The translations under genes were made by a program, and so were the position numbers. A stretch of 32,337 nucleotides of DNA, taken from contig CAIZMV010000205.1 in NCBI GenBank assembly GCA_903934195.1, positions 1 to 32,337 of the forward strand, given 5' to 3'. The stretch's first letter is position 1, and every line of letters starts with the position of its first letter. Below the pieces are notes generated by a model. The model worked only from the letters and a program-made list of their open reading frames with translations, searched no databases and had not been told where the DNA came from. Of the stretch, positions 24,647 through 27,924 are shown piece after piece. This DNA comes from an uncultured Acidimicrobiaceae bacterium (lineage in GTDB: Bacteria > Actinomycetota > Acidimicrobiia > Acidimicrobiales > Ilumatobacteraceae).

Positions 24647-25564
24647 ATGCCTACTCTCGTACCAACACCAAAAATCTGGATGAACGGAACACTTGTCGAT
24701 TGGGACAAGGCTCAAGTGCATGTTCTGACACACACTCTTCATTACGGCACTGGCGTGTTCGAAGGAATTCGTGCGTATGAAACCTCTGAAGGTCCTGCTG
24801 TATTCCGTCTTACTGAACACATCAATCGTTTGTTCAAGAGCGCAAAAATTCTTGGAATGGAAATTCCGTACACACCTGAGCAATTGATTGCTGCTACTAA
24901 AGAAGTAGTTCGTTCAACAGGTCTACCGTCTTGCTACGTACGACCACTTGCGTATTACGGATACGGCGAAATGGGCCTTAACCCACTTCCGTGTGTTGTT
25001 GACGTTGCAATTGCATGCTGGCCATGGGGCGCATACTTGGGTGAAGATGCCTTAACAAAAGGCGTGCGCATGAAGATCTCTTCATGGACGCGTCTTGACC
25101 ACAACACCATGCCACCTGCAGCAAAAACAGTTGGTAACTACGTGAACTCATCACTCGCCAAAGTAGAAGCCCTTAAGGCCGGATACGACGAAGCAATCAT
25201 GTTGAACCAGCAAGGTTTTGTTAGTGAGTGCACCGGAGAAAACATTTTCGTTGTGCGTAATGGCGTCATCCTGACTCCGCCGCTTTCTGCAGGAGCACTT
25301 GAAGGCATCACGCAGAACTGCGTGGCTCAGATTGCAGCCGAGCTTGGATATGAAATGCGGGTGGAGAACATTGTCCGCTCAGACCTCTACATCGCTGAAG
25401 AGATTTTCTGCTGTGGAACAGCTGCTGAAGTCAGTGCCATTAACTCAGTCGACGACCGCGACGTGCCGTGCCCAGGGCCAATCACCACTGCAATTGCCGG
25501 GCGCTATGCCAAGGCAGTCCGCGGCCAGGTGCCTCACTACAAGCACTGGTGCGAACTGGCCTAA
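24647..25564 (+). CDS. ilvE: Branched-chain amino acid aminotransferase
   Basis: HTLHYGTGVFEGIRAYET, KTVGNYVNSSLAKVEALKAGYDEAIMLNQQGFVSECTGENIFVV; taggag RBS. Confidence 0.96.
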   Translation: MPTLVPTPKIWMNGTLVDWDKAQVHVLTHTLHYGTGVFEGIRAYETSEGPAVFRLTEHINRLFKSAKILGMEIPYTPEQLIAATKEVVRSTGLPSCYVRPLAYYGYGEMGLNPLPCVVDVAIACWPWGAYLGEDALTKGVRMKISSWTRLDHNTMPPAAKTVGNYVNSSLAKVEALKAGYDEAIMLNQQGFVSECTGENIFVVRNGVILTPPLSAGALEGITQNCVAQIAAELGYEMRVENIVRSDLYIAEEIFCCGTAAEVSAINSVDDRDVPCPGPITTAIAGRYAKAVRGQVPHYKHWCELA

Positions 25565-25595: not shown

Positions 25596-25625
25596 TTGAC
25601 GAATGGCCTGGGAAGGCGCAAGACT
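25596..25625 (+). promoter_or_regulatory. Candidate promoter for cimA leader (TTGACG, 18 bp, AAGACT)
   Basis: TTGACG at 25596-25601 and AAGACT at 25620-25625, the latter ending 6 nt before the leader peptide ATG. Confidence 0.5.
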
Positions 25626-25631
25626 GTACCC

Positions 25632-25697
25632 ATGTCAATCGCCAGCACTTCTCGCCGCCTCGCCGGCACAGCTGTCGCGATCATCATTATTCGTTAG
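25632..25697 (+). CDS. cimA leader peptide MSIASTSRRLAGTAVAIIIIR (four consecutive Ile codons)
   Basis: ATG...GTC GCG ATC ATC ATT ATT CGT TAG; followed by hairpin and terminator before cimA. Confidence 0.85.
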   Translation: MSIASTSRRLAGTAVAIIIIR

Positions 25698-25721
25698 CGC
25701 ACGCCGGTCTCCGACGTGCGC
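25697..25721 (+). promoter_or_regulatory. Hairpin abutting cimA leader peptide stop codon
   Basis: GCGCACG-c-CGG-tct-CCG-a-CGTGCGC. Confidence 0.75.
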
Positions 25722-25726
25722 GTTCC

Positions 25727-25749
25727 AGCCGCCTTTAGGGCGGCTTTTT
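25727..25749 (+). terminator. Intrinsic terminator / attenuator upstream of cimA
   Basis: AGCCGCC-tttag-GGCGGCTTTTT, perfect 7-bp stem plus T-run. Confidence 0.88.
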
Positions 25750-25795: not shown

Positions 25796-27382
25796 ATGAA
25801 CACACAACACACAAAAGAATTAGTCGAAGCATTTGACACCACCTTGCGTGACGGAATGCAAGTAGAAGGCGTATCCGCAACTGTCGAGGACAAGCTTCGT
25901 ATTGCTGAACAACTTGATTACCTCGGCGTGCAATTCATTGAAGGCGGCTGGCCAGGAGCCAACCCGAAAGACATCGAGTTCTTTGCACGTGCAGCCACGG
26001 AATTGAAGTTGAAGCATTCAACATTGGTTGCATTCGGTTCAACGCGTCGTCCGAAGGGCAAAGTTGATGATGACGCAACATTGCGCAACTTGTTGGACGC
26101 CAATACGTCTGCAGTGTGCATTGTTGCAAAGTCATGGGATTATCACGTCACAGAGGCATTGCAGACAACTCTTGATGAAGGCGAGCTAATGGTTGCTGAT
26201 TCAGTTGAGTTCTTGACTGGTAATGGCCGTCAAGTCATGGTTGATCTTGAGCATTTCTTCGACGGTTATAAGAACAATCCCGAATTCGCGATGCGAGTTG
26301 TTGGGGCTGCAGTGATGAAGGGCGCAACCCACTTAGTGATGTGCGATACAAATGGTGGCTCATTGCCTCATGAGATTGCTGAAATCGTTACAAAAGTCAA
26401 AGCGTTTGTCGGTAACGACGCGACGTTGGGTATTCATTGTCATGACGACACCGGGTGTGCAGTTGCTAACTCAATGGCAGCTGTAATGGCTGGTGTTCGC
26501 CACGTACAAGGCACCTTGAATGGGTTGGGGGAGCGCACTGGTAACACCAACCTCACCACAGTCATTCCAAACCTTGAATTGAAGATGGGCTTTCGTTGTT
26601 TGCCAGAAGGCAATCTTGATCGTTTAACCGCTGTCAGCAATCATGTGGCTGAAGTACTGAACCGTCCTCTGAATCCTCAAGCTCCGTACGTTGGTTCATC
26701 TGCATTCGCACATAAAGCTGGCTTGCACGTGTCAGCAATCAAGCGTGCGAAAGATGCATACGAGCACATTGACCCAGTCGTTGTAGGAAATGGAACTCGT
26801 TTTGTAGTCAGCGAAATGGCTGGTCGAGCCACTATTGAAGTGAAGGCTGAAGAGCTTGGTTTGAAGATGGACGGGGCCGCCATTGGTTCAGTCATCGAAG
26901 ACCTGAAGCGTTTAGAGCACGAGGGCTACCACTTCGAAGCGGCGGATGCATCACTTGAACTACTGATGCGTCGCGCAAGCGGATGGAATCATGATGCCTT
27001 TCACGTGGAAACAATGCGTGTCATCACGGATGAAGCAGAAGATGGCGAATTCACAACCGAAGCAACGGTCAAGGTGCGCGTCGGAGAGAAGAGCTTTGTC
27101 CACACGGCCGCTGGTAATGGTCCGGTGAACGCGATTGACGCCGCATTGCGCGCGTCATTGTTACCTCACTACCCAGAACTGGCCAAGGTGCACCTCGTTG
27201 ACTACAAGGTGCGAATCTTGGATGGCGCAACCGCCACAGGCGCAATAACTCGAGTACTCCTTGACGCCACAAATGGCGACAGGTCATGGACCACCATCGG
27301 AGTCTCGGCAAACATCATCGAAGCCTCCTGGAATGCCCTTGAAGAGTCATTGATCTATGGACTACTCCACGCTTCGGCGTAG
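25796..27382 (+). CDS. cimA: (R)-citramalate synthase, pyruvate route to isoleucine
   Basis: FDTTLRDGMQVEGVSATVEDKLRIAEQLDYLGVQFIEGGWPGANPKDIEFF (CimA-type EGGWPGANPKD), HCHDDTGCAVANSMAAVMAGVRHVQGTLNGLGERTGN; start taken at MNTQHTKELVEAFDTTLRD (25796). Confidence 0.9.
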   Translation: MNTQHTKELVEAFDTTLRDGMQVEGVSATVEDKLRIAEQLDYLGVQFIEGGWPGANPKDIEFFARAATELKLKHSTLVAFGSTRRPKGKVDDDATLRNLLDANTSAVCIVAKSWDYHVTEALQTTLDEGELMVADSVEFLTGNGRQVMVDLEHFFDGYKNNPEFAMRVVGAAVMKGATHLVMCDTNGGSLPHEIAEIVTKVKAFVGNDATLGIHCHDDTGCAVANSMAAVMAGVRHVQGTLNGLGERTGNTNLTTVIPNLELKMGFRCLPEGNLDRLTAVSNHVAEVLNRPLNPQAPYVGSSAFAHKAGLHVSAIKRAKDAYEHIDPVVVGNGTRFVVSEMAGRATIEVKAEELGLKMDGAAIGSVIEDLKRLEHEGYHFEAADASLELLMRRASGWNHDAFHVETMRVITDEAEDGEFTTEATVKVRVGEKSFVHTAAGNGPVNAIDAALRASLLPHYPELAKVHLVDYKVRILDGATATGAITRVLLDATNGDRSWTTIGVSANIIEASWNALEESLIYGLLHASA

Positions 27383-27393
27383 AGTTTTAGTGC

Positions 27394-27924
27394 ATGTCAG
27401 CTCCCCGCTTTTCTCCAGTTCCTCCGGTTGAACCGGTTCGCTATTACGAATCTCCTGATTCGGTTCCTGAATCGTGGTCGCTTGGTCGTCCTGGTGAAAT
27501 CCAGGGACGTCAACCAGAAGGTGAGCGTCTCGGGTATCAGGGTCCTGACCAGGGATACATCATTGGTTTGGCCAAGCGTGCGCGTGCTCGAGTTCGTTTA
27601 GCCGCAGGCGAAGACATGGACGATGTTCTACGTGGATGTTCTCTGATTGCGTTGCGACGTGCGTCATTGTTTGGCCGTGCTCCAGTGGTGCATGACTTGA
27701 ATGTTGCATTAGGCATGTGGGGCTATCTGTCTGATTCACCGCCAGCAGACTTGGTTTCTGTGCGTCGTGAATTGTTTGTTGGTGTCGGTAACGCTGCACA
27801 TCATTACAAAGAGGGCCGCGCGATTGCTGACATGGCTCCGAATGAAACCTTGAGGATGTCGCCGTCAGAAGTGGTGACTCAATTTTCAACACAGTGGCGT
27901 TCACTCACAGGTTTTTCCGCATGA
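27394..27924 (+). CDS. Conserved-type hypothetical protein, translationally coupled to acyl-CoA dehydrogenase
   Basis: 176 aa ORF, ATGA overlap with the following gene. Confidence 0.75.
   Translation: MSAPRFSPVPPVEPVRYYESPDSVPESWSLGRPGEIQGRQPEGERLGYQGPDQGYIIGLAKRARARVRLAAGEDMDDVLRGCSLIALRRASLFGRAPVVHDLNVALGMWGYLSDSPPADLVSVRRELFVGVGNAAHHYKEGRAIADMAPNETLRMSPSEVVTQFSTQWRSLTGFSA

Follow-up and report, generated by a model that had tools for sequence, protein, structure and literature searches.

The gene for citramalate synthase (cimA), the enzyme that opens one of the routes to isoleucine, is preceded in an uncultured bacterium of the Acidimicrobiaceae by a short open reading frame ending in isoleucine codons, a hairpin and an intrinsic terminator. 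From sequence evidence, these parts most probably make up a ribosome-mediated attenuator that renders cimA expression responsive to isoleucyl-tRNA, and we place the probability of this reading at about 0.86. Here, we describe the element in a stretch of 32,337 nucleotides (the window), taken from contig CAIZMV010000205.1, which is part of a 1.68 Mb draft genome; its components are outlined in table 1.

Table 1. Components of the ilvE–cimA region in the window.
Feature	Position	Strand	Basis
ilvE, branched-chain aminotransferase, gene upstream of the element	24647..25564	+	NCBIfam NF005146, 422.5 bits (cut-off 279); TIGR01122, 403.9 bits (cut-off 245.6)
Predicted promoter: TTGACG (25596-25601), 18-nt spacer, AAGACT (25620-25625)	25596..25625	+	read from sequence
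Leader peptide ORF, 21 codons, MSIASTSRRLAGTAVAIIIIR*	25632..25697	+	sequence; frame and Ile codons conserved, body diverges
Control codons ATC ATC ATT ATT (four Ile)	25680..25691	+	codon -2 is Ile in 57/58 leaders; chance expectation in window 0
Stem 1 hairpin: 7 bp, C/A mismatch, 3 bp	25697..25721	+	folding; 9/10 modelled pairs change on both sides (57 sequences)
Intrinsic terminator: 8-bp stem (25727-25745) and T tract to 25749	25727..25749	+	folding; conserved in relatives
cimA, citramalate synthase, proposed regulated gene	25796..27382 (ATG 25796)	+	TIGR00977

The leader ATG (25632) stands 6 nt past the AAGACT of the predicted promoter, which is absent from the list produced by a generic sigma-70 scan. 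The four isoleucine codons are followed by CGT (Arg) and the TAG stop (25695-25697). The G of this stop codon (25697) is the first paired base of stem 1, which thus begins 5 nt after the last isoleucine codon, and a gap of 5 nt separates stem 1 from the terminator in the window. The initial annotation had placed the 21-codon frame, its four isoleucine codons near the stop and the adjoining hairpin exactly where they are found. It was also right about the place and the T tract of the terminator, but the stem, given there as a perfect 7 bp, has 8 bp. Directly 3′ of cimA lies an ORF of 176 amino acids (27394-27924) that matched no NCBIfam family; a similar stretch follows cimA in several relatives.

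The element between ilvE and cimA is not a product of chance. Together the two hairpins reach -31.3 kcal/mol, against -18.6 +/- 2.6 in 200 shuffles (z -4.92). The window contains a single case of four isoleucine codons followed by one further codon and a TRR triplet, and 0/100 shuffles contain any. When 31 related genomes were searched for the pattern ATHx4-NNN-TAG, each held at most one match, situated just upstream of cimA in those where cimA was located, and a reversed-pattern control gave zero matches in the same 31 relatives.

The arrangement is conserved well beyond the window. The cimA protein is present in 57/61 relatives, and leader, hairpin and terminator are found together in nearly every genome of the genus that has the region on a contig, as well as upstream of cimA in three further genera of the same family and in a second family. 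The body of the leader varies freely; what stays constant is the isoleucine run near its end (three or four codons in nearly all cimA leaders of these relatives), one more codon, TAG, and a stem that starts from the G of this stop codon. A covariance model (R1) searched against 299 genomes of the order Acidimicrobiales detects the element in 182 of them at E <= 0.1, and the best 30 of its loci all lie directly before cimA, leuB-cimA or leuB-ilvE-cimA. The element stands between ilvE and cimA in the window's genus, at the head of a leuB operon in many other families, and likewise before leuB in a representative of another order of the class (L105). Judged from these differing positions, the element may have been carried to the isoleucine-specific gene.

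Outside the family, the leaders also read ISI, ITI, IIVI, VVVII or IIIV, and in five of them (L063, L067 and L073-L075) isoleucine is interleaved with serine or threonine (ISIP, ITIP, IITIS). The terminator varies as well. Its 5′ arm reads CCGTCC in most of the loci L063, L067 and L071-L081, with a U-G wobble in mid-stem that is kept across many families outside that of the window. The T tract is poor in some families, for example at L060, L066 and L070; these loci and L076, all of family f60, combine a poor T tract with a very stable terminator hairpin, and termination in this family may need other factors.

Both hairpins show compensatory changes. In an alignment of 57 distinct sequences, 12 of the 17 pairs change on both sides, and the number of covarying cells is 91 against 26 +/- 6 when shuffled, a value reached by 0/500 shuffles; sliding the structure by 1-3 columns as a control leaves 2-10 cells. 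This alignment was fitted to the covariance model, and relatedness among its sequences is only partly controlled, so the result from an earlier MAFFT alignment, made without structure, matters too: it yields 8 pairs and 12 cells, again with 0/500 shuffles reaching as many. A start codon lies 3-10 nt (mode 6) past the predicted -10 in 58/62 loci and is in frame with the isoleucine run in 58/58; since this places an in-frame start at the predicted transcription start site, the leader mRNA is probably leaderless. Isoleucine occupies codon -2 in 57/58 leaders, codon -4 in 52 and codon -3 in 49, counts that include many close relatives and do not amount to 58 independent events. The proposal that an isoleucine-codon leader and terminator precede cimA is thus borne out across the Acidimicrobiales, and the comparison of ilvE-cimA spacers that the initial annotation had asked for gives both the conserved codons and the compensatory changes in the stems.

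The gene downstream is CimA and not LeuA, a conclusion that rests on protein evidence independent of the leader. Its product scores 676.6 bits against the TIGR00977 citramalate synthase model (cut-off 450), every LeuA model scores below its own cut-off, and the closest named carriers of the protein are MAGs of the Acidimicrobiales and Ilumatobacteraceae. The same identity had been proposed from the cis-regulation of the gene; the cis-regulation agrees with this identity but is not needed for it. As most relatives also have a threonine ammonia-lyase-like gene (for those in the genus, mostly with a score slightly below the curated cut-off), CimA as the sole route to isoleucine is unsupported, and cimA may represent one of two routes to 2-oxobutyrate. 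Three contigs titled 'Bifidobacterium breve' MAG (L184, L191 and L222) carry a cimA close to that of Acidimicrobiales or other actinobacteria, 83% identical to the window cimA in the case of L184, and these records look mislabelled.

We propose the following sequence of events. A leaderless transcript would start at the leader ATG. When isoleucine is plentiful, the ribosome would pass the four isoleucine codons, reach the stop codon and occlude the entire 5′ arm of stem 1, after which the terminator would end transcription before cimA. When isoleucyl-tRNA is short, the ribosome would stall on the isoleucine codons, just clear of stem 1, which would be free to fold, and RNA polymerase would read through into cimA. 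Translation of the leader, stalling, the direction of control and the defeat of the terminator by stem 1 are all steps that we infer. Folding energies agree with a switch of this kind. With the ribosome footprint taken as 12 nt past the start of the A site, stem 1 has a mean energy over 50 sequences of -18.2 kcal/mol when the A site is at codon -5 or -4, -14.4 at codon -3, -7.3 at codon -2 and -1.1 at the stop codon, so that in this model the position of the ribosome turns stem 1 on (stalled at isoleucine) or off (at the stop). The terminator (-16.1 kcal/mol, mean of 50 sequences) is unaffected by ribosome position. In folds computed without translation, stem 1 and terminator form together, and stem 1 alone should therefore not prevent termination.

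How the ribosome is coupled to termination is left unexplained by sequence alone, as there is no sign of an antiterminator that works by base pairing. In duplex and partition-function folds of 51 sequences, the 5′ arm of the terminator pairs with RNA downstream of the stalled ribosome no more strongly than shuffled sequences do (mean z +0.2). An antiterminator drawn from RNA upstream of the ribosome was set aside on leader length: where a leader is as short as 10-12 codons, a ribosome at the isoleucine codons would have hardly any unoccupied RNA on its 5′ side. Since stem 1 and the terminator share no bases, a steric readout is judged likeliest: stem 1 would take up the slack RNA and jam the stalled ribosome against the polymerase, leaving the terminator hairpin without room to form. 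Stem 1 keeps a constant distance of 5 nt to the control codons, and 0-6 nt separate it from the terminator. That attenuation proceeds in this way, through the geometry of stem 1 and without competition between base pairs, and by the same mechanism at ilvB and cimA leaders across Actinomycetota, is offered tentatively, at well below even odds.

Stem 1 might instead act mainly as a polymerase pause hairpin that synchronizes ribosome and polymerase, with regulation by timing and not by exclusion of the terminator. Such a role would agree with what is established for pause hairpins in the trp and his leaders, since stem 1 lies just upstream of the terminator and a ribosome arriving at the stop codon would release it. 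Pausing accounts for synchronization but by itself yields no difference in termination, and a pause hairpin would not need to sit at a constant 5 nt from the control codons; we regard pausing as unlikely to be the main function.

A classical attenuator with 1:2, 2:3 and 3:4 pairings, in which a stall at the last isoleucine codons lets the 3′ arm of stem 1 capture the 5′ arm of the terminator and termination is prevented, is less likely still. The initial annotation had assigned the element to this trp/his layout, and folding for mutually exclusive pairings finds none above shuffles in 51 sequences, but rather two hairpins without overlap. A short alternative pairing does appear in truncated folds (GUG(C)GC with GC-CGC in the genus, GUGCGC with GUCCAC elsewhere), and an overlap of three nucleotides is reported to be sufficient in the C. 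glutamicum ilvBNC attenuator (PMC11857589). Duplex energies do not rise above those of shuffles, however, and stem 1 stays folded with a ribosome stalled anywhere from codon -5 to codon -3. At L055, L057, L058, L059 and L062, moreover, changes in one arm of stem 1 are matched by changes in its other arm, the terminator arm remaining GCCGCC, so the alternative pairing has not been preserved.

Control of cimA by a ligand- or protein-binding RNA, such as a riboswitch or T-box, could be imagined because the 5′ leader holds two hairpins that are structured and conserved, and is very improbable. No Rfam family, T-box included, matches at the gathering threshold, and a relaxed threshold returned chance-level matches far below gathering scores; the loops vary freely while the stems covary, and among the unpaired sequence it is the isoleucine codon run that is conserved. 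A terminator that serves simply to end the ilvE transcript, with the short ORF there by accident, is scarcely credible, despite the location of the element directly 3′ of ilvE in the window's genus: a predicted promoter precedes the terminator, the isoleucine codons and their frame are conserved, and in other families the element stands at the head of the leuB operon, which led us to reject this reading.

An attenuator that senses isoleucine at cimA has counterparts elsewhere in the branched-chain pathway. Where the covariance model matches a genome of the order a second time, the locus is mostly an ilvB leader (TLVVLT, LVVIT, LLVAIT). Within the window's family, 16 of the 20 ilvB upstream regions match, 14 of those 16 from the genus itself, although a search of the window's own draft genome for an ilvB match found none. 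The ilvB leaders of the family (L135-L151, mostly from the genus) contain three to five valine codons and mostly end in LVVVVL or VVVVV, with the spacing of stem 1 and terminator seen in the cimA element; weak matches elsewhere in the phylum are often ilvB leaders of identical layout. Because the genus carries a paralogous element with a valine run at ilvB, the codon sensed appears to follow the pathway, as expected of one type of device whose sensing codons are fitted to it, valine or leucine at ilvB and isoleucine at cimA. Nor is the element at cimA an isolated device, as the same layout with valine or leucine codons precedes ilvB both in the genus and elsewhere in the phylum.

Beyond the class, leaders before cimA take several forms. 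The cimA leaders of Streptosporangiales (Nonomuraea, Planotetraspora, Acrocarpospora, Sphaerisporangium and Actinomadura) read M..LLIISRRAG* or a near variant; their stop codon lies inside the hairpin, yet stem 1 starts 5 nt after the last isoleucine codon. Eight cimA loci of this order (L188, L195, L196, L199, L203, L210, L218 and L228) have a conserved leader and a long hairpin adjoining the terminator. Branched-chain amino acid codons, 5 nt, stem 1, a short spacer and a terminator make up the layout seen at cimA, at ilvB and at the Streptosporangiales cimA loci. Three MAGs from outside the class have cimA leaders ending in IIA, IIN or IIL with the Acidimicrobiales layout. A crude detector applied to 58 further cimA upstream regions outside the class flagged three, two of which (f94 and f97) resemble an isoleucine leader; two leaders of f85 (TIIGSRRAGPQ and MIIGSRRAGPQ) fell just under its threshold. 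With so few cases among the 58, an isoleucine leader is not universal before cimA.

The nearest known systems are the actinobacterial ilvB leaders (Seliverstov et al. 2005, PMC1262725; Mtb ilvB1, PMC13236596; S. lividans ilvL, PMC8079986), which likewise comprise a short, usually leaderless ORF rich in branched-chain amino acid codons, hairpins and a terminator. They differ from the element described here in its target, which is cimA or a leuB-ilvE-cimA operon, and in its control codons, which are all or nearly all isoleucine. No cimA leader was found in the available parts of the same three sources, and a literature search for a cimA or citramalate synthase attenuator, or for an Acidimicrobi- leader peptide, found no description among the papers it covered, most subscription papers lying outside it. 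The C. glutamicum ilvBNC attenuator and the ilvB-II motif (PMC11857589, PMC10272879) are similar in having a leader peptide (leaderless in C. glutamicum), tandem hairpins and a terminator. There, however, a GCC trinucleotide is common to antiterminator and terminator, and most of the first hairpin lies within the leader; in the present element no base belongs to both hairpins, and stem 1 starts at the point where the leader stops. With the enterobacterial trp, his and ilv attenuators the element has in common control codons for the end product, ribosome position as the signal and a terminator before the first gene; those systems rely on a mutually exclusive antiterminator, and none was found here. 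The best explanation of the sequence evidence is that the element belongs to the known actinobacterial ilvB leader type, its layout unchanged, and that what is new is the target gene, cimA, and the amino acid sensed, isoleucine.

PMC1262725 described the mode of regulation of actinobacterial branched-chain leaders as unclear in 2005; it also cites the S. coelicolor ilvB leader, in which replacement of the candidate control codons had no effect, a result that counts against an attenuator. In the published model for Mtb ilvB1 (PMC13236596), too, a ribosome at the stop codon masks the antiterminator. The layout found here makes it testable how actinobacterial branched-chain leaders work without an overlapping antiterminator. 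For the Acidimicrobiales, a large order represented mostly by MAGs, it provides a well-supported, isoleucine-specific control element for the citramalate route. The valine-reading copy at ilvB pairs with the isoleucine element at cimA, so that the amino acid sensed can be read from the genome and used as a check on pathway assignments.
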